From IMG/VR virus record IMGVR_UViG_3300031280_000010, positions 1 to 33,824 of that record: 33,824 nt of DNA. One strand, given 5' to 3'. The notes beneath the pieces were generated by a model, which saw nothing but the letters and a program-made list of their open reading frames with translations, was not told where the DNA came from and made no database searches. The stretch's first letter is position 1; every line of letters starts with the position of its first letter. A program made the position numbers and the translations under genes. Shown one piece after another: positions 3,400 through 23,402 of this stretch. The DNA is from a virus.

Positions 3400-3504
3400 A
3401 TGAAAAAATTTATAGATTGGGTTGAAAATGATGGGGGATTTCTTGTAATTATTTATGGAGTTGGATTTATAGTATTTATAATAGCAATGTTATTTATTAA
3501 ATGA
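3400..3504 (+). CDS. single-pass membrane micropeptide (34 aa)
   Basis: A 34-residue frame, MKKFIDWVENDGG followed by one hydrophobic helix of about 20 residues (FLVIIYGVGFIVFIIAMLF) and a terminal IK. The length and flanking charges fit one transmembrane segment. It ends in an ATGA overlap with the next glycosyltransferase, as do most neighbours, which supports translation. It could anchor or recruit the soluble glycosyltransferases to the membrane, but that is inference from position only. Confidence 0.55.
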   Translation: MKKFIDWVENDGGFLVIIYGVGFIVFIIAMLFIK

Positions 3505-4217
3505 TTGCAATAGTTATACCGACATATTGTCGTCCTGATGGCAAGACCTATTCGTATCTTGATCGTGCTTTGAAATCAGTTTACAATCAATCTTATAAAG
3601 ATTTCAGTATTTTTGTTATCGGAGATGATTATAAAAAGAAAAACGAATTATTTCGTTTGTGTTATCGATATAAGGCAAAAGTGATAAATCTCTCTGAATC
3701 TATTGAACGTCTTAAATATCCTTTTGGTGATTATAGATTATTCTGTTCGGGAGGTATTACACCTTATTTAAAAGGCATTGAGTTTGCTTTAAAAACTGGA
3801 TATAAATATATTTGTCATCTTGATCATGATGATTGGTGGGAAAAAGATCACTTGTGGCAGATTGTGAATATAATAAAACAATATAATCCGCTTTTTATAT
3901 GTACACTTTCGACTTATTATGGTACTAACCTTCCGTATTTTGATCCTGATGGTAAATTGTTTGAATATTTCCCATGTGCCGGGGGTTGTGTTTTAAGCGC
4001 AACGTGTGTAAAATATTCATGTACTGATTTAAGATTCAGGGATGTATTTTCAGAGACAGGAACGGCACGTCCGGCAGATGCTGATTTCTGGGATCGGCTT
4101 GGTGAAGAAATGAAACAATCGAACAAGAAAGGATATTTGTTATCAAAAATAACATGTCATCACGATACTGAAGCTTATTCGATTAATGGGAAATTTAATA
4201 CAGATAAAAATAAATGA
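3501..4217 (+). CDS. glycosyltransferase family 2 (DHDDWW motif)
   Basis: A 238-aa GT-A enzyme. The N-terminus IAIVIPTYCRPDG and LDRALKSVYNQSYKDF are the classical family-2 start, and CHLDHDDWW (about 106-113) holds the metal/nucleotide-binding acidic motif. ADADFWDRLGEEM near residue 195 fits the catalytic acidic region, and CHHDTEAYS near the C-terminus the family's closing His motif. No membrane helix follows, so it is expected in the cytoplasm. It is coupled by ATGA overlaps to the micropeptide before it and to the DegT-like gene after it. Substrates cannot be read from sequence. Confidence 0.87.
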   Translation: MIAIVIPTYCRPDGKTYSYLDRALKSVYNQSYKDFSIFVIGDDYKKKNELFRLCYRYKAKVINLSESIERLKYPFGDYRLFCSGGITPYLKGIEFALKTGYKYICHLDHDDWWEKDHLWQIVNIIKQYNPLFICTLSTYYGTNLPYFDPDGKLFEYFPCAGGCVLSATCVKYSCTDLRFRDVFSETGTARPADADFWDRLGEEMKQSNKKGYLLSKITCHHDTEAYSINGKFNTDKNK

Positions 4218-4834
4218 ATCCTCATCAGATAACAACAGAATTTGAGAAAGCGATATGTGATTATACTGGTGCTCCATATTGTGTGGCTGTCGATAATGCT
4301 TCAAATGCCTTGTCTATGTGTCTTACTTATTGTAAAGCAGAAGAGAAAGAAATTGTAATACCTTCACATACATATCCGTCTGTGCCTTGTGAAATAATAT
4401 TAGCAGGAGGAAGGGTACGTTTTGAGGATTCGCCAAAGCATCTTACAGGAGAATATCAATTAAAACCATTACCTATATGGGATTCTGCTTTAAGATTTAC
4501 TGCTAATATGTATCGGCCCGGACAATATCAATGCCTATCATTTACAGGTCAATGGAAGCATTTAAAGATGTTAAAGGCAGGAGCGATACTTACAGACTCA
4601 CATGATGCTTATTTATGGTTTAAACGTTATCGTTTTTCGGGACGTAGAGAATGCAGTTATCATGATGATCATTTTGATATGTTGGGGAAAAATTATTATC
4701 TTCATCCTATATTTGCGACAATAGGATTACAGATGATACAGGCATTTTATAATTTGGACGGCACTAAAAAGGATATTCCAGACTTATCATTGCCTTACCC
4801 GGATTTGAGTAAATATGAAATATATAAAACCTAA
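4214..4834 (+). CDS. shortened DegT/DnrJ/EryC1-like PLP aminotransferase
   Basis: DegT-family enzymes use pyridoxal phosphate to put an amino group on nucleotide-linked keto-sugars. Here the large-domain landmarks appear in order: YCVAVDNASNALSMCL (phosphate-binding loop region), IVIPSHTYPSVPCEIILAGG, Asp90 in IWDSALRF (pairs with the pyridine nitrogen), Lys115 in SFTGQWKHLK (candidate Schiff-base lysine), GAILTD, and YYLHPIFATIGLQM. The family is normally about 370 aa; this one has 206 and lacks most of the C-terminal small domain. The stop is clean and followed by coupled genes, so it seems a stable short form, not a recent frameshift. It may be a reduced transaminase or a non-catalytic sugar binder. 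Confidence 0.75.
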   Translation: MNPHQITTEFEKAICDYTGAPYCVAVDNASNALSMCLTYCKAEEKEIVIPSHTYPSVPCEIILAGGRVRFEDSPKHLTGEYQLKPLPIWDSALRFTANMYRPGQYQCLSFTGQWKHLKMLKAGAILTDSHDAYLWFKRYRFSGRRECSYHDDHFDMLGKNYYLHPIFATIGLQMIQAFYNLDGTKKDIPDLSLPYPDLSKYEIYKT

Positions 4835-4838
4835 AAAG

Positions 4839-5153
4839 ATGAAAAGGAAAGAATTTTTGAAGAAGATTGTGTCAATATTTGGTATTGCTTTAATTGCACC
4901 AAAGATAATATTAAATAATGCCAAAAAGACAAACAAACCATTGACAGAAAATTATCCTATCTATGGACAAATAGAGTGTCCTGTATGTAAAGGATTCGGA
5001 ATTATTGAAATAGAAAGTGGGATTAAAGAATTATTTATTTCTGATACTTCAAGAGAATCAGAAAAAGAATTTAATTTAAGGCGTCATTTAGCAGAAGAAT
5101 ATGCTAATAAAATGTTAGATAATATTTATATTGAATTATTTTCGAATACATGA
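4839..5153 (+). CDS. small protein with signal/anchor sequence and CxxCxGxG motif
   Basis: The product (104 aa from the ATG at 4839) begins MKRKEFLKKIVSIFGIALIA, a basic start followed by a hydrophobic stretch. Bacteroidetes exported proteins often begin this way, including Tat-type ones with RR or KR before F-L. An in-frame ATG at 4815 would add eight residues and overlap the upstream gene; 4839 is preferred since it follows the TAA by four bases. CPVCKGFG is a single DnaJ-like zinc-binding half-site. The rest is charged and helical. It may be an inner-membrane anchored or exported partner of the sugar cluster; function is unknown. Confidence 0.6.
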   Translation: MKRKEFLKKIVSIFGIALIAPKIILNNAKKTNKPLTENYPIYGQIECPVCKGFGIIEIESGIKELFISDTSRESEKEFNLRRHLAEEYANKMLDNIYIELFSNT

Positions 5154-5869
5154 ATGCCTTTGTAGTTAAAAACCTTTGGAATTATGAATCTGTAAATCCT
5201 GTACCCAAAGGACTGGAAATGGATACATATTATATCACAGATTCAGAAAAGAATCGTATAGAAGCACTTAATAAAGGATGGGATTATGCCTGTAATATAT
5301 CTCAATTTAAAAAGGAAAGAGATTTATTAAAACGGCGTTCTATTATAGGATTTATAAATTGTTATCCTGAAATGGTTTGTGAACAATTAAAAGATTATGA
5401 TAAAATATTTGTTACAGACAGTAATATTTTGAATCTTCCGTCAAATTACAATGATTTTGTGTTTGCCTCAACCGATGATAAAGCTTGTTATTTAACTTCA
5501 GGCTATTATGAACAGATAGGACATAAGTTTGAAGATAATATACTTATGGAGCTGGAACGTTCTGTTAATTCAAGATGGTCTTATAATACAGATGCAATGA
5601 TTCGGGCTACGAATTATTATATTCATCTTCTTCAGGATGCAGGAATAAATCATACAGAATTATCGGTATCGTCTGCAAAATATATCGGATGGAATTTAAA
5701 ACATCCAAAACGGCAGGAAATAGCTGATTTTGTCACAGCAGAATACGAAAAACATTTACAAGGTAATATTATATTTACTTTTGTTTATGCTTATTGGAAG
5801 GATTATGTTCTTAACTTTCGCTTTTTGAACGATGATGTAATACACACACCGCATAAATTTATAGCATGA
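5150..5869 (+). CDS. putative nucleotide-sugar-transferase-like protein (239 aa)
   Basis: I do not recognise the family securely. The segment YDKIFVTDSNILNLPSNY resembles the DxD-bearing strand and loop of GT-A glycosyltransferases, and the same pattern (NIFLTDISDVELVKNPF) recurs in the gene at 8890. Residues 112-175 contain WSYNTDAMIRATNYYIHLL, a helical region. It has neither signal peptide nor membrane helix. ATGA overlaps couple it to both neighbours, placing it in the sugar operon. A transferase role is inferred from that context and the motif; it could be a non-enzymatic partner. Confidence 0.55.
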   Translation: MNAFVVKNLWNYESVNPVPKGLEMDTYYITDSEKNRIEALNKGWDYACNISQFKKERDLLKRRSIIGFINCYPEMVCEQLKDYDKIFVTDSNILNLPSNYNDFVFASTDDKACYLTSGYYEQIGHKFEDNILMELERSVNSRWSYNTDAMIRATNYYIHLLQDAGINHTELSVSSAKYIGWNLKHPKRQEIADFVTAEYEKHLQGNIIFTFVYAYWKDYVLNFRFLNDDVIHTPHKFIA

Positions 5870-6786
5870 AAAAACATAGAATAGCAGTAACAGCAACCGG
5901 GGGAGGTGTTGGTCAGTCAATACTTAAAGCTTTAAAGGATTCAGATTATGAAGTTATTGCACTTGACGGTGATCGACTTGGCGCAGGGCTTTATATGGTA
6001 TCAGAATCTTATCTTATACCTTATGCACGGGATCCTGAGTTTATTCCTTTTCTTTTAAATCTTTGCAAGGGAAAGGATATAGACCTGTTGTTTCCCGGCA
6101 TGGATTGCGAGCTACCAAAATTATCTGAAGCAAAGAAAATGTTTAATAAGTTAGGAGTGAAAATACCAATAAGCAATACTAAAATTATTGATATTGCAGA
6201 TAATAAACTGACTACTCAGCATTTCTTAAAGAATAATAAGTTTCCTTATATAAAGACTTTCATATATGGCAATAAGATGCGCTATGTTCTGAAACCCAGA
6301 ACAGGAGGTGCAAGATCACAAAACATGAGCTTTGTAACCGATAAGGATATATTCACATTCAAAAATAACTCTAATTATGTAGCTCAGGAATATATCGAAG
6401 GTGATGAATATACCTGTGGAATGCTGACTCTTGACGGCAAGTACATAGGCTGTATTGTCATGCGTAGAATATTAAGAGATGGTGACACATATAAAGCATT
6501 TGTTGAAAGAAACGAGACTATTGAAAATCTTTGCCGGGATATATGTAATATCTTAAAACCGGAAGGAGCTTTTAATATTCAACTCCGTATGCGTGATGGC
6601 GTGCCTTATGTCTTTGAGTTTAATGCTCGTTGTTCCGGCACGACTGCCGCACGTGCTTTAGCTGGCTTTAATGAACCAAAAATGATTGCTGATTATTATT
6701 TGAAGAATATTGAGCCTGAATTTAAGATCAAAGAGATAAATATACTCAGATATTGGAATGAATTAATTGTAGAAAAACTTATATGA
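5866..6786 (+). CDS. ATP-grasp family ligase
   Basis: A 306-aa ATP-grasp enzyme of the carbamoyl-phosphate-synthase-like group. The pre-ATP-grasp domain starts with a Rossmann-type loop (TATGGGVGQSILKALK) and IDLLFPGMDCELP. The ATP-binding part shows YVLKPRTGGARS (nucleotide-binding lysine and loop), VAQEYIEGDEYTC, and the metal-binding FEFNARCSGTTAA near residue 250. Such enzymes join a carboxylate to an amine or similar nucleophile through an acyl phosphate. Similar proteins sit in surface-polysaccharide loci, often beside epimerases and DegT aminotransferases, as here. The substrate is unknown; it might amidate a sugar acid or make a small activated precursor. Confidence 0.85.
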   Translation: MKKHRIAVTATGGGVGQSILKALKDSDYEVIALDGDRLGAGLYMVSESYLIPYARDPEFIPFLLNLCKGKDIDLLFPGMDCELPKLSEAKKMFNKLGVKIPISNTKIIDIADNKLTTQHFLKNNKFPYIKTFIYGNKMRYVLKPRTGGARSQNMSFVTDKDIFTFKNNSNYVAQEYIEGDEYTCGMLTLDGKYIGCIVMRRILRDGDTYKAFVERNETIENLCRDICNILKPEGAFNIQLRMRDGVPYVFEFNARCSGTTAARALAGFNEPKMIADYYLKNIEPEFKIKEINILRYWNELIVEKLI

Positions 6787-7532
6787 TAGCACTCACAGGA
6801 CACGGCGCACTTGCAGAGGCTTATGCAAAAGTAAATCGGGCATGTTATATACATTCTTTCCGATCGCTGGCAGATAATGAAATAGCAGATATTATCAGTC
6901 GTACAGATATATTGATACACAATGCAGCTACTTTGATAAACAAAGATGCAGAACAAAATCTTGCATTAACTAAAAGAATAGTTTACCTTATATTAAAACA
7001 TAAGCCGGAAGTTAAATTTCTGTATGTCGGGTCAATGTCGTATCTTAGCGAAACAGGATATTTGTCAGAACAATGGATGACACCTTATACTTATTCGAAA
7101 TTTCTTTCTGAAAAATATTGTTTTGCTACTTTAAATAATATCAAGACAATACGTTTTTCTACTTTGTTTTATCGTGATCCTGAACGTGATGGGCTTAGTC
7201 GTTTAATAGCGGATGCTGTTAAAACAAAGAAAATATCGCTTATTAACGGTGGAACACAAACACGTGACTGGCTTCCGATAAATATAGCAGCAAAAGAACT
7301 TCATCGAGTAGCGACAACAAACACGCCTCCGATAAATACAATTGCATCAGGAGTGGAAACATCATTTTTGAAGCTTGCTAATATTGTTCATAAATATACT
7401 GATTGTTCAATAGATTATAAAAGGGAAATAATTATAAACCCCAGTCTTGTATGTAGTAAGTTTGCAAAGACTGTAGAAGTAGATTTAGATAAAGAGATAA
7501 AAGAATATATTAAACAATTAAAAATTGATTAA
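6783..7532 (+). CDS. NAD-dependent epimerase/dehydratase (extended SDR)
   Basis: This 249-aa protein shows the extended short-chain dehydrogenase plan. It opens MIALTGHGALAEAY, a Rossmann dinucleotide loop with a reduced glycine pattern, then ILIHNAATLINKD, FLYVGSMSYL (catalytic Ser region) and YTYSKFLSEKY with the YxxxK pair. RFSTLFYRDPERDG and GGTQTRDWLPINIAAKEL match the substrate-domain region of NDP-sugar epimerases. It is shorter than usual (about 300-330 aa). Expected activity is oxidation/epimerisation or dehydration of a nucleotide sugar in the cytoplasm. It is coupled by ATGA to the ATP-grasp gene, suggesting consecutive steps in one pathway. Confidence 0.85.
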   Translation: MIALTGHGALAEAYAKVNRACYIHSFRSLADNEIADIISRTDILIHNAATLINKDAEQNLALTKRIVYLILKHKPEVKFLYVGSMSYLSETGYLSEQWMTPYTYSKFLSEKYCFATLNNIKTIRFSTLFYRDPERDGLSRLIADAVKTKKISLINGGTQTRDWLPINIAAKELHRVATTNTPPINTIASGVETSFLKLANIVHKYTDCSIDYKREIIINPSLVCSKFAKTVEVDLDKEIKEYIKQLKID

Positions 7533-7533
7533 A

Positions 7534-7758
7534 ATGGAAACAGGGGAAAATATTATTCTTAATAAAGCACAATTAAAAGCAATTGGAGGATCAGATATAT
7601 TTGATTGTATTAATGAAGCAATTCAATTCGCAGCTAAGCATGATATTAAATGTACTTTAATACATAATAGTATTGAAGTTGAGGTATCGACACAAGAATT
7701 AAAAGAGACTATTTATAATATGTGGAATAAATTATTAAAAGAAGCTTGTAAGAAATGA
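7534..7758 (+). CDS. hypothetical protein (74 aa)
   Basis: Not recognised. The product is METGENIILNKAQLKAIGG with a central helix (IFDCINEAIQFAAKHDIKC) and a C-terminal helix. The start at 7534 follows the preceding TAA by one base; an earlier non-ATG start in the same frame is less likely. It overlaps the phosphoesterase gene by ATGA. The phrase IKCTLIHNSIEVEV suggests a short beta hairpin. It could be a small accessory protein of the sugar genes, or an unrelated passenger. Confidence 0.5.
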   Translation: METGENIILNKAQLKAIGGSDIFDCINEAIQFAAKHDIKCTLIHNSIEVEVSTQELKETIYNMWNKLLKEACKK

Positions 7759-8375
7759 AGATACTTGTATTTTCAGATATACATGGCAATTTACCTGCAA
7801 TTGAAAAGTTATTAAACACAGAATCGGCTGATTTATATATTTCGCTTGGTGATGTAGTTAATTACGGTCCCTGGCAAAATGAATGTGTCGAGTTACTTGA
7901 TACTTTGAAATACAAGATATTACATTTTGGCAATCATGAACAGTATTATTATAAAGGAAAATATAGTAATAATAATCTCGCAGGACGATTTTTCGAATTT
8001 TGCTATCCGCAATTCACCCGACATGATCTTATAAAAGACTATCGGGAAGATTCAAGATTAAATGGATATAACTTTCAGCATACTTTCGAGAATAAGGTTA
8101 TTTATCCCGATACTCATATTGTATTTAATGATAATTATATTATCGGTCATTCACATCATCAATCTTTACACAAATATAGACGATGGAAGATGTATTGCAT
8201 AGGCTCAGCAGGTCAAAACCGACAATATATAAACCGTATTGATTATATGATCATGAATCATACTTGCGAACTGAAACATTTAATTTATGATGAAACGCTT
8301 GTTATAAATGAAATGAAAGCAAGAAAATATCCGAAAGAATTTATCGAGTATTATAGTAAAAAACAAAGGATATGA
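7755..8375 (+). CDS. calcineurin-like metallophosphoesterase
   Basis: A 206-aa enzyme with the full di-metal motif set of the calcineurin-like (YfcE/MJ0936-type) superfamily: FSDIHGN (Asp8, His10), LGDVVNYGP, HFGNHEQYY, and IIGHSHHQ, followed by IGSAGQNR. These residues bind two divalent metals that hydrolyse phosphomonoesters or diesters, including cyclic nucleotides and nucleotide sugars. It is soluble. In this setting, between sugar-nucleotide genes and a methyltransferase, it may hydrolyse a nucleotide or sugar-phosphate intermediate; a 3'-5' nucleotide role is also possible. ATGA overlaps join it to both neighbours. Confidence 0.9.
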   Translation: MKILVFSDIHGNLPAIEKLLNTESADLYISLGDVVNYGPWQNECVELLDTLKYKILHFGNHEQYYYKGKYSNNNLAGRFFEFCYPQFTRHDLIKDYREDSRLNGYNFQHTFENKVIYPDTHIVFNDNYIIGHSHHQSLHKYRRWKMYCIGSAGQNRQYINRIDYMIMNHTCELKHLIYDETLVINEMKARKYPKEFIEYYSKKQRI

Positions 8376-13772: not shown

Positions 13773-14354
13773 ATGATGCGGTCTGATGGATTTTATGATT
13801 ATGCGTGGTCGCCAGTAACAGGTTGTCTTAATGATTGTTGGTATTGTTATGGTAAGAAAGATTTTGAACAACGAGGATTAAGTTATCTTCCTGAGTTTCA
13901 TCCTGAGAGATTACGAGAACCTTACGGTTATAAACCATCGAGAATATTTGTTACACATTATACTGACCTGATGGGTGATTTTATTCCTGAAGAATGGGTT
14001 AAATCTATTATAGGAGTATGTAATGATTTGTCAAAACAGACCTTTATGTTCCTGACAAAGAATCCCAAAAGATATTACGAATATGATTTCCCTGATAATT
14101 GTATACTTGGCGTTACTGTTGAATCAAAAAATGAGATTCAGCGTATTGATATTATCTCAGGGATAAAAGCCAGGAAGTGGATTTCTATTGAGCCTATACT
14201 TGGAGATTTCACCGGAGTTGATCTTTCGCAATTTGAACTTTGTATCATTGGTAAACTATTTAACCATGTATCAAAGATAAGACCCGAATGGGTGCGATCT
14301 GTTTCGCATTCCAATATCTATTATAAACCAAATGTCAGGAGGTATTTGAAATGA
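13773..14354 (+). CDS. Gp37/Gp68-like (DUF5131) radical-SAM-type protein
   Basis: This 193-aa protein belongs to the phage Gp37/Gp68 group, DUF5131. The N-terminus AWSPVTGCLNDCWYCYGKK holds the CxxxCxxC cluster typical of radical-SAM iron-sulfur proteins. RIFVTHYTDLMGDFIPEEW, TFMFLTKNPKRY, GVTVES and WISIEPILGDF are the other conserved blocks. The family usually is about 230-260 aa; this copy ends soon after IEPILGDF and is somewhat short. It presumably performs a SAM-dependent radical reaction on an unknown substrate. It sits between portal and the head morphogenesis gene, overlapping the next gene by ATGA. Confidence 0.9.
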   Translation: MMRSDGFYDYAWSPVTGCLNDCWYCYGKKDFEQRGLSYLPEFHPERLREPYGYKPSRIFVTHYTDLMGDFIPEEWVKSIIGVCNDLSKQTFMFLTKNPKRYYEYDFPDNCILGVTVESKNEIQRIDIISGIKARKWISIEPILGDFTGVDLSQFELCIIGKLFNHVSKIRPEWVRSVSHSNIYYKPNVRRYLK

Positions 14355-14668
14355 ATGAAAGAATTATTTACAAAGAACATTTTTTTTATGATGATCCAGT
14401 AGGTAATTGGTATAAATGCGATAATTGTAATGAAGAAGTCTTTATTCCTTCTGGTTATCCCATATATTCATATTGTCCTTATTGTGGAGAGGAGATTGAT
14501 AAGATTGATGGTTGTGGACAATGTAAAGATGATGATAATATATGTATAGCAAATTATGTTCAAATTAAAAATCCAAGAACGCAAAAGTTTATAAAAATTG
14601 ATAAAAAACAAGGTAGGATTATTGCTTCAAATAAAAATGAGTTTTTAAATATAGAAATTATAAAATGA
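14351..14668 (+). CDS. zinc-ribbon protein, unknown (105 aa)
   Basis: The protein carries YKCDNCNEEVF and YCPYCGEEID, two CxxC pairs about 20 residues apart that should form one zinc ribbon, followed by DGCGQC with another pair. The C-terminal YVQIKNPRTQKFIKIDKKQG looks like a small beta domain seen in phage hypothetical proteins. AGGAGG at 14337-14342 is a good ribosome-binding site. It is flanked by ATGA overlaps on both sides. DNA, RNA or protein binding are all possible. Confidence 0.65.
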   Translation: MNERIIYKEHFFYDDPVGNWYKCDNCNEEVFIPSGYPIYSYCPYCGEEIDKIDGCGQCKDDDNICIANYVQIKNPRTQKFIKIDKKQGRIIASNKNEFLNIEIIK

Positions 14669-15264
14669 GGTTTTCGGTCATTATGGCTTCACGTCTCGTT
14701 CCTTATAGCAGTCAATGTGCAGAGCCTGAAGCAAAATTACGCAGAGCTATTCAGTCGGTACTCGATCAGTCATTCCGGGATTTTGAACTGATAGTCATTG
14801 CTGACGGTTGTAAGAGAACTAAAGAGATAGTTAAAGAATTTAAGGGAATACGTTTTTTTGAAGTCAAACATACACAACTTTGGGGCAATGCTCCTCGTAA
14901 TGCCGGGATTAAAAACGCCAAAGGAGAATATATCATATATTGCGATAGTGATGACTGGTGGGGGACAGAACATTTACAAATCATTAATTCTAATATTAAA
15001 GATAATGACTGGGTATATTATAATGATATTGCTTATGATAAACGCAATGCTCGATGGATTGAACGTGCGTGTAATATCCATAAAATGGGAGCTTGTGGAA
15101 CATCAAATATATGTCATGCCTCACGACTCGGATTGCATTGGCAGCATCCGGGCTATGCTCATGACTATTATTTTAATCAACAGTTATTAAGGTATCATAA
15201 CTTCAAAAGAATACCGACTCCCGAATATTATGTTTGCCATATACCAAATAATTATGACTTATGA
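14665..15264 (+). CDS. glycosyltransferase family 2 within the head module
   Basis: A 199-aa GT-A protein with the family-2 pattern: FSVIMASRLVPYSSQC, LRRAIQSVLDQSFRDFELIV, ADGC and YCDSDDWWG (acidic motif at 94-99). GNAPRNAGIKNAKGEY is the classical nucleotide-binding helix preceding the DxD. GACGTSNICHASRLGLHW is the acceptor region, and YVCHIPNNYDL closes the protein. It is the clearest glycosyltransferase outside the 2773-9579 cluster and lies among head genes, coupled by ATGA to the zinc-ribbon gene. It may glycosylate a virion component, but this is inference. Confidence 0.88.
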   Translation: MRFSVIMASRLVPYSSQCAEPEAKLRRAIQSVLDQSFRDFELIVIADGCKRTKEIVKEFKGIRFFEVKHTQLWGNAPRNAGIKNAKGEYIIYCDSDDWWGTEHLQIINSNIKDNDWVYYNDIAYDKRNARWIERACNIHKMGACGTSNICHASRLGLHWQHPGYAHDYYFNQQLLRYHNFKRIPTPEYYVCHIPNNYDL

Positions 15265-20102: not shown

Positions 20103-21164
20103 ATGAGTATTAATTTATGTTTGTCTGAAGTTATCGGATTCTCTCGCTCCGAAGACCTTTGTGTTGACGGATGGGATCCGAGTTATGCAACTTCGCTTTC
20201 GGGAATATATATAGATGAACTGCAAGGTATGTCGCTTCGTATCCTTGATGCTGTCGGCGGGAAAGATACTATATGGCAGATGATGGACCGTGCTCGTTCG
20301 GCAGCTATCAATACATTTAAGACCGATGTCTGGCAGGAAATAATGAAACGTTATGAATATCGGCGATTAAAATTCTCAGGCGAGATAGGATCACGGAGGT
20401 TTTCTCAGATTATCTTTAAGGATACCTATCATGGAATAAGATTGTTTTCTGATATTAAAGGAGGTACTTTTACACTTCGGGGTATTACTCTTAATCTTGA
20501 TTCAACGGAAACGGTTGATTTATTTATCTATGATGATTTTGAACTTGTTGATACTGTTTCGATAGATTCGTCTGCCGGGAAACCAAATTATAATATAATT
20601 ACTGCTATTGAACTTGATCTCAAAGGAAATTATTATTTTGTATATGCTCCTGCAGGGACGCCGTATAATAATAAGATAACCTGCGGATGTGGCGGTTACC
20701 GTTGGTATTTCGATACTGAAAATCCATGCTATAAAGGCTCTAAAGAAAACTGGACATTATGGTGTATTGCGGGTGGTATTCATGGCGATGATCTCACAGA
20801 ACGTGATGACTGGGCTGTTTCGCAATATGCGCAGGGGCTTAGATTACATGGAGAGTTTAAATGTGATCCTTCGGATATATTTTGTAGTGCAGCCTCGGAT
20901 TTTGAGAATAATGAAGTTGATTCTGCCATTGCCTGGGCTATTGCTTTTAAGACAGCCGAATTTTTGACATACGATATACGTAATTCCGATGAAGTATCTC
21001 GTAATACACTTATAGGTAACGATGCGGTTCTTAATGCTAATATGAGTTATTATTCTGATCGTTATATTGCTCTTTTGACTTATATAAGAGAAAACATTTG
21101 TGTTGACGGTAATGACTGCCTCGAATGTAAACGGCGTATTGGTCTATACTCACAAAAACTCTGA
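20103..21164 (+). CDS. virion structural protein, putative neck/head-tail connector (353 aa)
   Basis: Not recognised at family level. It follows the capsid gene and precedes tail completion genes, where head-tail connectors lie. The start (MSINLCLSEVIGFSRSEDLC) and end (ENICVDGNDCLECKRRIG) carry Cys residues, and the middle (GGTFTLRGITLNLDSTETV, LDLKGNYYFVYAPAGTPYNN) is beta-rich like a jelly-roll decoration domain. The C-terminal helical part (AIAWAIAFKTAEFL) could be the connector core. A beta-sandwich inserted in a neck protein would be surface-exposed. It overlaps the next start by one base. Confidence 0.6.
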   Translation: MSINLCLSEVIGFSRSEDLCVDGWDPSYATSLSGIYIDELQGMSLRILDAVGGKDTIWQMMDRARSAAINTFKTDVWQEIMKRYEYRRLKFSGEIGSRRFSQIIFKDTYHGIRLFSDIKGGTFTLRGITLNLDSTETVDLFIYDDFELVDTVSIDSSAGKPNYNIITAIELDLKGNYYFVYAPAGTPYNNKITCGCGGYRWYFDTENPCYKGSKENWTLWCIAGGIHGDDLTERDDWAVSQYAQGLRLHGEFKCDPSDIFCSAASDFENNEVDSAIAWAIAFKTAEFLTYDIRNSDEVSRNTLIGNDAVLNANMSYYSDRYIALLTYIRENICVDGNDCLECKRRIGLYSQKL

Positions 21165-21628
21165 TGGCAATAGCTATAATAGAATATAATCGCAGACTTC
21201 AGGGTGTTATTAATGATCTTCAATCCGGAGCGCATGGTCAAGTTATGACACAAATAGCTGAAAATGCCATCACATATATTCGGGATAGAGTACAAGAGAA
21301 AGGACTAAATCCCGAAGGTGGACAATACAAGGATTATTCATTAGGGTACAAAAGATATAAAGAAAAGAAAGGTAAATACAAGGGATTTGTTGACTTTACA
21401 TTTTCTGGCAGGATGTTTAACAATATAAAACTTGTTTCACCGAAAGACGAACTTGATCAGGGAATAGCGGTTATTAAAGCTACTACACAGGAGGATGCGG
21501 GAAAACTGCAAAAGAATACCCTTGCACGTGGTGATATACTTATGGTAAGCAAACAGGAACTTGAACAGTTAAAAAAAGATTATGAACAGGGAATACTCGA
21601 TATATTTCGTAAAAATCAACTTTTATGA
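21164..21628 (+). CDS. putative tail-completion / neck protein (154 aa)
   Basis: The helical N-terminus (LQGVINDLQSGAHGQVMTQI) followed by GGQYKDYSLGYKRYKEKKGK and VDFTFSGRMFNNIKLVSP resembles the gp10/virion-morphogenesis type of tail completion proteins, which contain a similar FSGxMxxNI stretch. These join the tail to the head-neck complex. The gene sits between a neck protein and a probable tail terminator, coupled on both sides, consistent with the role. No exact family is certain. Confidence 0.6.
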   Translation: MAIAIIEYNRRLQGVINDLQSGAHGQVMTQIAENAITYIRDRVQEKGLNPEGGQYKDYSLGYKRYKEKKGKYKGFVDFTFSGRMFNNIKLVSPKDELDQGIAVIKATTQEDAGKLQKNTLARGDILMVSKQELEQLKKDYEQGILDIFRKNQLL

Positions 21629-21870
21629 AACATCTTGTTGAGATAACTCCCGATAAAGCACGCAGAATGCTTTCGACCTATAGAAATAAAGCAGTACCGG
21701 ACAAACAGAAGGTTGAAAGATTTAAACGAATAATAATATCAGGACGATGGAATGCTGAAAGATATACAAGGATATTAATGATAAAAGGAGAGCTCCGTAA
21801 CGGAAAACATCGATTGACGGCAATAGCAGAAACAGGAATACCAACAATAATAAAACTCGATGAACAATAA
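21625..21870 (+). CDS. short ParB-like / nucleic-acid-linked domain protein (81 aa)
   Basis: The sequence follows a known short pattern: VEITPDKARRMLSTYRNK, then FKRIIISGRWNAERYTRILM, and GELRNGKHRLTAIAETG. The GxHRL-type turn with a preceding GRW segment is typical of small ParB/Srx-like proteins found in phages and plasmids, where relatives bind nucleotide or phosphoryl groups. It is only the core, without DNA-binding domain. Its presence between two tail completion genes is odd, as these proteins do not belong to the tail. It is coupled by ATGA to the gene before it. Catalytic or binding activity is unproven. Confidence 0.62.
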   Translation: MKHLVEITPDKARRMLSTYRNKAVPDKQKVERFKRIIISGRWNAERYTRILMIKGELRNGKHRLTAIAETGIPTIIKLDEQ

Positions 21871-22459
21871 AATAGCAAATATACTTAAAAGTTATCTTGA
21901 AGACTTATCATGGGCTGATAAAGTTGCAGGGCTTACACAGGTAGCTAATATCAGGTTAAAAGAAGGTGAAAATATCACAGATAAATCGTTTCCTATCTCA
22001 TGTAATGTAACCATTGAGGATTGTGAAAAAAAAGGTAAATATGATGAATTGGCTCCTAATTCCAAAAAGAAATCTGTGATGTTCTTTGAAGATCGTGGCG
22101 GTGTTAAACTTGACCACTATGAAGGTACTCGTATCTGGTATCGTGCATCGTTGAGATTGATAGTATGGCTGAATCTTCGTAAAATAGAAGGTGCTGCATG
22201 TGATGCTGATGTTTCGGAATGTGGTGTATCGGGTGATTATGTTCTTGATGTTATAAAACATATACCTTATAATGCTTTCGATTCAGGGGGATTTTATGGA
22301 ATTAGTATTGAGCCGCCGGAACAGGTCGAGAGATCGGTTGATATATTTGGGAGATATACTTTTAATGAACCACAGACACAATATCTGATGTGGCCTTATG
22401 ATTACTTTGCCCTTGATTATGATATATTGTTTTCAATACCATGTGATTATGCTGAGTGA
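21860..22459 (+). CDS. putative tail terminator / tail completion protein (199 aa)
   Basis: Overlaps the ParB-like gene by 11 bases. The protein begins with a helix (IANILKSYLEDLSWADKVAG) and then is beta-rich (VMFFEDRGGVKLDHYEGTRI, LRLIVWLNLRK). Tail terminators cap the tail tube and have such an alpha/beta build, and the place just before the chaperone genes is appropriate. The ending (PQTQYLMWPYDYFALDYDIL) is similar to C-terminal strands of terminator-type folds, by general impression only. Five Cys lie in the middle and at the end. Confidence 0.55.
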   Translation: MNNKIANILKSYLEDLSWADKVAGLTQVANIRLKEGENITDKSFPISCNVTIEDCEKKGKYDELAPNSKKKSVMFFEDRGGVKLDHYEGTRIWYRASLRLIVWLNLRKIEGAACDADVSECGVSGDYVLDVIKHIPYNAFDSGGFYGISIEPPEQVERSVDIFGRYTFNEPQTQYLMWPYDYFALDYDILFSIPCDYAE

Positions 22460-22766
22460 AATTCTTAAAATATCGTTTACTGCTTATATTTTCATCTGGC
22501 TTGGTGATCCGGAAGAAATATTCGGATGGTATCAGCGATTGATCAAGGATTTGCCTATATGGTTATGGAAGCCTCTGGGTGGTTGTGTAAAGTGTTTTAC
22601 AGGACAGGTATGTTTGTGGTATTATATTATTGCTCATTATGAAAATTATAATATATTAAATCATGGATTTTTTATTGCCGGTGGTGTATTTCTTGCATGG
22701 CTTTACGAACTTATTTTTGCTATTATAAACAAATTAAAAGATCGCTATGAAACTACGAAAACTTGA
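22449..22766 (+). CDS. membrane protein with CVKCFTGQ motif (105 aa)
   Basis: Start taken at ATG 22449, which overlaps the preceding stop; an earlier frame extension to 22398 would lie wholly inside that gene. The protein has a first hydrophobic segment (ISFTAYIFIWLGD), LWKPLGGCVKCFTGQVCLWY with a CxxC pair, and a last one (FFIAGGVFLAWLYELIFAII) with a basic tail. Two or three membrane helices are likely. The G-C-x-x-C-F-x-G-Q pattern is one I have seen in prophage-encoded Bacteroidetes membrane proteins without function. A holin is possible but placement within tail genes argues otherwise. Confidence 0.6.
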   Translation: MLSEILKISFTAYIFIWLGDPEEIFGWYQRLIKDLPIWLWKPLGGCVKCFTGQVCLWYYIIAHYENYNILNHGFFIAGGVFLAWLYELIFAIINKLKDRYETTKT

Positions 22767-23253
22767 CTTTTCTAAAGATAAGTATTTTGAATGCGGAGGG
22801 CGTAAGTTCTATGTTCACGATACACTTTCTTTTGTGCGCTGGCGGGAGATGCAGCGTATAAATATGGAATTTGGTTATTCTGCCACGTTTATAGATATTT
22901 ATAATAATCTGGATAAAGCTGTTCAGGAATTTAATAAACACGAATATTTTAATATGGCAGTGATTATTAATAATATTCAAAATGGTATTATTCGTATTGA
23001 TAAGAAGGACGATCCGTCACAGAGGTTATGTGCTTTGTTTATCAATGAAGAAGGAGAAGATTTAACAATTATCAATGATGGAATAATACGTTCAAAGATT
23101 GACTGCTGGAATAAAGAACTCGATGCGTCCCCTTTTTTCTATTTGGCATCCAGTCTTGTCAACGGATGGATGTCAGCTTACGAGAAAATTTCCCGCAATG
23201 GTTTGACGACAATAGAAAGCGACCAAAACGAAAAGAAAGAGAAGACAGAATAA
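22747..23253 (+). CDS. tail assembly chaperone, upstream frame (gpG-like)
   Basis: A 168-aa protein sitting immediately before the tape measure gene, where siphophages encode the tail assembly chaperone. It overlaps a second open frame in the -1 phase, and a slippery heptamer TTTTTTC (23133-23139) lies in the correct phase (codons CCT TTT TTC). Termination in the 0-frame gives this shorter product, the lambda gpG equivalent; a fraction of ribosomes would shift and make a 218-aa gpGT-like fusion. The protein is alpha/beta with a helical middle (IYNNLDKAVQEFNKHEYFNM) and an acidic-basic tail. Chaperones coat the tape measure and recruit tail tube subunits. Confidence 0.8.
   Translation: MKLRKLDFSKDKYFECGGRKFYVHDTLSFVRWREMQRINMEFGYSATFIDIYNNLDKAVQEFNKHEYFNMAVIINNIQNGIIRIDKKDDPSQRLCALFINEEGEDLTIINDGIIRSKIDCWNKELDASPFFYLASSLVNGWMSAYEKISRNGLTTIESDQNEKKEKTE
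23133..23174 (+). promoter_or_regulatory. programmed -1 ribosomal frameshift signal
   Basis: T TTT TTC at 23133-23139 is a canonical X XXY YYZ slippery heptamer in the phase of the upstream frame. Five bases further on, GGCATCC (23145-23151) can pair with GGATGTC (23168-23174) in a 7-bp stem with one G-U pair and a 16-nt loop, a suitable stimulator distance. After slipping back one base, decoding continues from 23139 into the frame that ends at 23402. Confidence 0.8.
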
Positions 23254-23402
23254 AACATACAGCCGTTGAAATACGTGAACTTGAAAAATACTGGAGAGAA
23301 CTGATTTATAATGTTTGTGATAAAGACCCACAAAAGATGAGAGAGATTGTTAAGCTAAATGTATTTGAATTTTTTGATTATGTCAATGAAAAAATAAAGT
23401 GA
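23139..23402 (+). CDS. tail assembly chaperone, -1 frame extension (gpT-like part)
   Basis: The -1 frame is open from 23115 to its stop at 23402. Read after the slip, it adds 87 residues to the first 131 of the upstream frame: the C-terminal part is basic then helical (RKRPKRKEREDRIKHTAVEI, RELEKYWRELIYNVCDKDPQ, FEFFDYVNEKIK). A separate ATG at 23166 exists but no clear ribosome-binding site was seen, so frameshifting is the better explanation. In lambda-like phages the T part binds the tape measure protein or the tail tube. It ends two bases before the tape measure start. Confidence 0.77.
   Translation, partial: LFGIQSCQRMDVSLRENFPQWFDDNRKRPKRKEREDRIKHTAVEIRELEKYWRELIYNVCDKDPQKMREIVKLNVFEFFDYVNEKIK

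Follow-up and report, generated by a model that had tools for sequence, protein, structure and literature searches.

The programmed -1 frameshift of lambda gpG/gpGT and its counterparts in long-tailed phages were reportedly described by Xu, Hendrix, and Duda in 2004. Reviews of recoding cover this frameshift and its counterparts (PMC5009743). Another design is found in Thermus thermophilus dnaX, where the long form is the default and transcriptional slippage occurs on a run of nine A's (PMC3711429, PMC5009743). A further point of comparison is provided by the phrog_8914 proteins of phages B40-8, B124-14, PDS1, Croceibacter P2559Y, and others.

Here, we analyzed a window of 33.8 kb of virus DNA (IMG/VR record IMGVR_UViG_3300031280_000010, positions 1 to 33,824), for which a -1 frameshift in the tail assembly chaperone had been predicted. 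In common with lambda gpG/gpGT and the counterparts in long-tailed phages, the locus has two frames that overlap with a -1 offset immediately ahead of the tape measure, a slip site close to where the first frame ends, and, as predicted, a short default product alongside a long fusion. Unlike in lambda, the slip site of this branch is a T run encoding Phe-Phe, the hosts are Bacteroidota, searches of Pfam and of the named PHROG chaperone families gave no direct match, and distant homologs of the gene combine an A run with a long default form. With phrog_8914, the window gene shares distant homology over the full fused length, the position before a related tape measure, and, in several cases, a similar small membrane-protein neighbor, whereas phrog_8914 genes consist of one frame of ~250 aa with an invariant A9-A11 run and off-frame stops past the run. 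We are highly confident that the gene at 22747-23402 (Table 1) encodes the tail assembly chaperone of a siphophage of Bacteroidota and uses lambda-like G/GT -1 slippage on T TTT TTC. It is well supported by the comparisons below that this feature is the lambda G/GT mechanism, one of an already known kind, in a previously unannotated family.

Table 1. Features of the chaperone locus and its surroundings (window positions unless a relative is named)
Feature	Location	Strand	Evidence or remark
Tail protein	21164..21628	+	weak phrog_6195 / Phage_tail_S match, E 0.06 / 0.001
Conserved tail-module protein (phrog_8145)	21860..22459	+	E 8e-8
Small predicted membrane protein, CxxC...GQ motif, directly upstream of chaperone	22398..22766	+	conserved neighbor; annotated DUF1360 in PDS1
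Tail assembly chaperone, predicted short (gpG-like) product, 168 aa, frame 0	22747..23253	+	frame read, homologs
Candidate slippery heptamer T TTT TTC, in phase	23133..23139	+	sequence; in-phase T TTT TT[T/C] in 30/32 loci
Predicted -1 frame extension, gpT-like, 87 codons + stop	23139..23402	+	sequence; C-terminal domain conserved in relatives
Possible stem-loop, 3 nt past heptamer	23143..23176	+	MFE fold; not significant, not conserved
ATG in -1 frame	23166..23168	+	arises from 0-frame Trp codon (GGA TGG); in relatives GTG, CTG, TTG, or absent
Tail tape measure protein, 707 aa	23404..25527	+	phrog_20660, E 8.1e-22
DUF1360-like neighbors in relatives	L001 2736-3020; L002 2709-3002; L003 2753-3010; L023 1123-1377; L031 1599-1856

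The overlapping frames of the original prediction hold in all their coordinates (22747-23253 and 23115-23402), with frame 0 running from the ATG at 22747 to the stop codon at 23251-23253 and the -1 frame free of stops over 23115-23402. The codons at 23131-23139 read CCT TTT TTC, which verifies that the heptamer lies in phase with frame 0. A -1 shift at this site would give a product of 131 + 87 = 218 aa, in which DASPFF is followed by LFGIQSCQR; the peptides predicted from the sequence are ELDASPFFYLASSLVNGWMSAYEK for the 0-frame and ELDASPFFLFGIQSCQR for the junction. By itself, however, the site in the window is only mildly unlikely and hence not decisive: TTTTTT[TC] occurs in seven runs on the + strand of the 33.8-kb window, and a single in-phase occurrence within an overlap of ~135 nt would be uncommon by chance (about 1% by our own estimate). 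What is decisive is the conservation of the slip site among relatives.

Protein searches of IMG/VR, of a Spirosoma genome, and of further genomes from the same family and order yielded, once repeats had been removed, a set of 32 distinct loci including the window, made up of IMG/VR phages and Cytophagales prophages. Comparing the heptamer across these homologs, which are 25 to 60% identical, we found T TTT TT[T/C] in phase at the homologous Phe-Phe in 30 loci, within runs of T6 to T9; this conservation, together with that of the extension, supports the predicted frameshift. For the first 13 loci, the probability of the slip-site pattern arising by chance is ~10^-8.6, given the codon use of each locus and with the loci treated as independent. 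A heptamer of the X XXY YYZ form known from lambda-type G/GT genes is thus present in phase at the homologous codon, save in one lineage (L170 and L174), which has T TTC TTC at the site and still keeps the -1 frame. Slip sites of the T TTC TTC type are weaker and involve a single tRNA. The comparison makes it very likely that the -1 frameshift at 23133-23139 is real. Direct protein searches of GenBank phages with the T-run proteins gave no match, and neither did a search of IMG/VR with the tape measure. In one relative, an inserted frame between the chaperone and the tape measure (L002:3632-4105) has, by eye, the look of a GIY-YIG-type homing endonuclease.

A run of T's could also give access to the -1 frame through transcriptional slippage, which would generate mRNAs with an extra U and would not involve the ribosome. 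Such slippage is usually linked to T runs of more than 8 (PMC3711429), and eight relatives from the Spirosomaceae and other Cytophagales have exactly T9, the sole A or T homopolymer of at least 8 in ~3.4 kb of sequence with 44 to 56% GC. The A9-A11 relatives, which do reach a homopolymer length of 8 to 9 or more, would be compatible with it as well. The window, however, falls short of that length, with just six T's followed by a C, and runs of T6-T7 occur in 14 of the 32 loci, leaving the in-phase heptamer as the common denominator of the branch. We consider transcriptional slippage in the window unlikely and prefer slippage by the ribosome.

The sequence past the slip site provides a separate line of evidence. 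The -1 extension is 80 to 125 aa long in all 32 loci and ends, in nearly all of them, in a conserved domain (Y-W-x-x-L-L ... M-D-x-x-x-F-[FWY]), while the region of a P-x-[YWH]-F motif lies exactly 60 nt past the slip site in 19 loci. Downstream of the 0-frame stop, changes are most frequent at the third codon position of the -1 frame, with counts for the three positions of 14, 14, and 29 between the window and L001 and of 7, 8, and 22 between L170 and L177. Between L170 and L174, 1 of 84 sites has changed in the doubly coding overlap, versus 31 of 201 after the overlap (p = 1e-4); overlap comparisons with L177 point in the same direction and are not significant. Judged by these patterns, the -1 extension is a coding frame under selection.

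A coding frame might be a separate gene that starts at the -1-frame ATG at 23166 and encodes 78 aa without any frameshift. This ATG, 33 nt past the site, has an ATG counterpart in L173 and L178 and a GTG counterpart in L001. The NTG at this position, however, is forced in the -1 frame by a 0-frame Trp codon (TGG) that is conserved among the closer relatives, and in L002 it reads CTG; we rejected an independent start at 23166 as a by-product of the Trp codon in the other frame. Furthermore, in 22 of the 32 loci, no ATG, GTG, or TTG occurs within the 60 nt that follow the slip site and precede the conserved motif. (Start codons were judged by this fixed distance because in about ten loci an automatic search put the motif in the wrong place or failed to find it.) Homologous genes that occur as one frame, and the conservation of the slip site itself, also argue against a start within the extension. 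Such a start is very improbable in our estimation, with a small probability left to it in the window itself, and at the level of the family the extension is both under coding selection and unreachable from a start of its own, as expected of a lambda-type -1 frameshift. Still less credible, to the point of being practically negligible, is an overlap left by gene decay or by an assembly error in the form of a single-base homopolymer indel: homopolymers are indeed prone to sequencing errors, and phage P2559S (A8) may be one such case, but the same layout, with the -1 frame under constraint, recurs in 32 distinct loci, which refutes error or decay for the family.

The 7-bp stem that the original prediction placed at 23145-23174 is present, and the MFE fold lengthens it by two base positions on either side (Table 1). 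A role as stimulator is not supported by comparison: 12 of 200 dinucleotide shuffles fold equally well (z -1.5), no such stem was found when it was looked for in L001, and folding downstream of the site gave a mean z of -0.6 over the 32 loci, versus -0.2 in a control stretch. As its folding lies within the range of shuffles and the stem is not conserved, we did not count it as a needed stimulator.

We infer that slippage takes place, that it is ribosomal, and that both the 168-aa and the 218-aa products are made, each with its share in the product ratio and its own role. In this scenario, most ribosomes would finish frame 0, while some would step back one base on T TTT TTC as the two Phe-tRNAs re-pair from TTT-TTC to TTT-TTT. 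The slipped ribosomes would then read the 87 further codons of the -1 frame, generating a fusion like lambda gpGT next to the gpG-like short form. The short form would coat the tape measure, and the long form would also recruit the major tail protein. Relatives would obtain the same pair of products through T6-T9 sites or through an A9-A11 run in a distantly homologous gene.

The connection to this distantly homologous gene came through the tape measure, whose C-terminal third matched 45 GenBank records from phages of Bacteroides, Parabacteroides, Croceibacter, Elizabethkingia, and Alistipes. In most of the records inspected, a single gene of ~250 aa (phrog_8914) lies directly before the tape measure; it is deposited as a tail assembly chaperone in TCUEAP2 and elsewhere as a hypothetical or virion structural protein. 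PD691P4 has an unrelated gene in front of its tape measure, and AS73P1 is truncated where its record begins. Profile comparison with hhalign aligned the fused T-run protein to phrog_8914 over 200 columns (probability 96%, E 2.3e-9, score 67.1), compared with a maximum of 26.9 for 60 column-shuffled profiles and 14.5 for a reversed profile, and the fusion outscored either half alone against the phrog_8914 chaperones. The similarity thus extends along the whole fused protein, and a long product that is found naturally as one chain supports the frameshift in the window. Where phrog_8914 has A9-A11 at Lys-Lys-Lys, the window has T TTT TTC, which makes it a relative of the A-run branch and not a member. 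Structure prediction gave a confident phrog_8914 model (pLDDT 95), which had a weak match in BFVD to a Rhodococcus phage chaperone (E 0.07); fold searches of solved structures (PDB) with this model listed no convincing relative. A prediction for the 168-aa product of the window from a five-sequence alignment (pLDDT 43) was discarded.

In the middle of phrog_8914 chaperone genes, the sequence reads GTC AAA AAA AAA ATA GA or similar. A 19-base pattern around this A run retrieved 46 stretches from IMG/VR, 44 of which are phrog_8914 chaperone genes. Avoiding the bias of this pattern, we collected the relatives again by protein profile (the phrog_8914 loci are L021-L035, L036-L081, and L082-L144) and found A9-A11 in every profile-found locus that reaches the site, even at 55 to 59% GC. 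All 39 one-frame clusters (<70% identity) use AAA at all three Lys codons, versus 35 to 72% at other conserved Lys columns; the chance of this pattern, calculated from each gene's own codon use under independence, is ~10^-32.6, an exaggerated value given the ancestry that the genes share. A or T runs of at least 9 number 40 across 155 kb of these loci, and each of 39 loci has such a run here.

Most A-run genes have the long form as their default product. Counted from inside the A run, stops in the +1 frame come early, after a mean of 3.5 codons versus 12.1 in synonymous shuffles (none of 500 as low), and 20 of 37 loci have an immediate stop, often TAG; those in the -1 frame fall as expected (7.3 versus 7.5 codons). 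Early +1 stops would be expected if selection favored a short product arising from a +1 shift, which suggests that slippage at the A run yields the short form, the inverse of the G/GT logic. Seven loci (L145, L148-L152, and L154) have the opposite polarity: their A run is shifted by one phase, the default product is a short one of 140 to 161 aa, and the long protein, encoded in the -1 frame, aligns fully with the one-frame proteins. Both A-run arrangements, and the T-run branch too, place the short frame at +1 with respect to the long frame. Since this relation holds in nearly all cases, a change of one base in run length can flip the default product.

The combination of a run that always has at least nine A's with a +1 stop fits transcriptional slippage of the Thermus dnaX type better than ribosomal -1 slippage. 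The features proposed to be shared with dnaX are a single long frame, an A9-A10 run, and off-frame stops giving the short form; dnaX is a different protein, and the window itself does not follow the dnaX-type logic. In Croceibacter phage P2559S (L026:1768-2533), deposited as two genes, the run is A8 and the long part lies in the +1 frame, so that two more bases or one fewer would be needed. This A8 may be a homopolymer sequencing error, as A9 would give the usual short-default layout.

On balance, we lean toward the view that a single chaperone family of Bacteroidota siphophages has switched its recoding design, with T6-T9 sites making the long form by a -1 shift, invariant A9-A11 runs making the short form from a long default through what is probably transcriptional slippage, and the opposite polarity in a few members. 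If slippage on a long-default gene is indeed the source of the short form, a single protein family would meet one product-ratio problem by two opposite decoding logics, and it is these A-run relatives with their inverted default that specialists would not expect. Our literature search, whose scope excluded most subscription papers and preprints, found no report of a T-run or A-run site in Bacteroidota phage chaperones. Since the Bacteroides fragilis phages B40-8 and B124-14 are cultivable, the A-run logic can be tested directly. The tail assembly chaperone and its probable mode of expression can now be identified across a broad range of phages and prophages of Bacteroidota that lacked this annotation, and the correct long protein can be called.

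Beyond the chaperone gene itself, a predicted DUF1360-like small membrane protein with a CxxC motif stands directly before it in many of these phages (Table 1). Farther upstream, at 3501-8375 and 13773-15264, the window carries sugar and small-molecule genes, comprising two glycosyltransferases, a DegT-type aminotransferase, an ATP-grasp protein, an epimerase, a metallophosphatase, and a DUF5131 protein.
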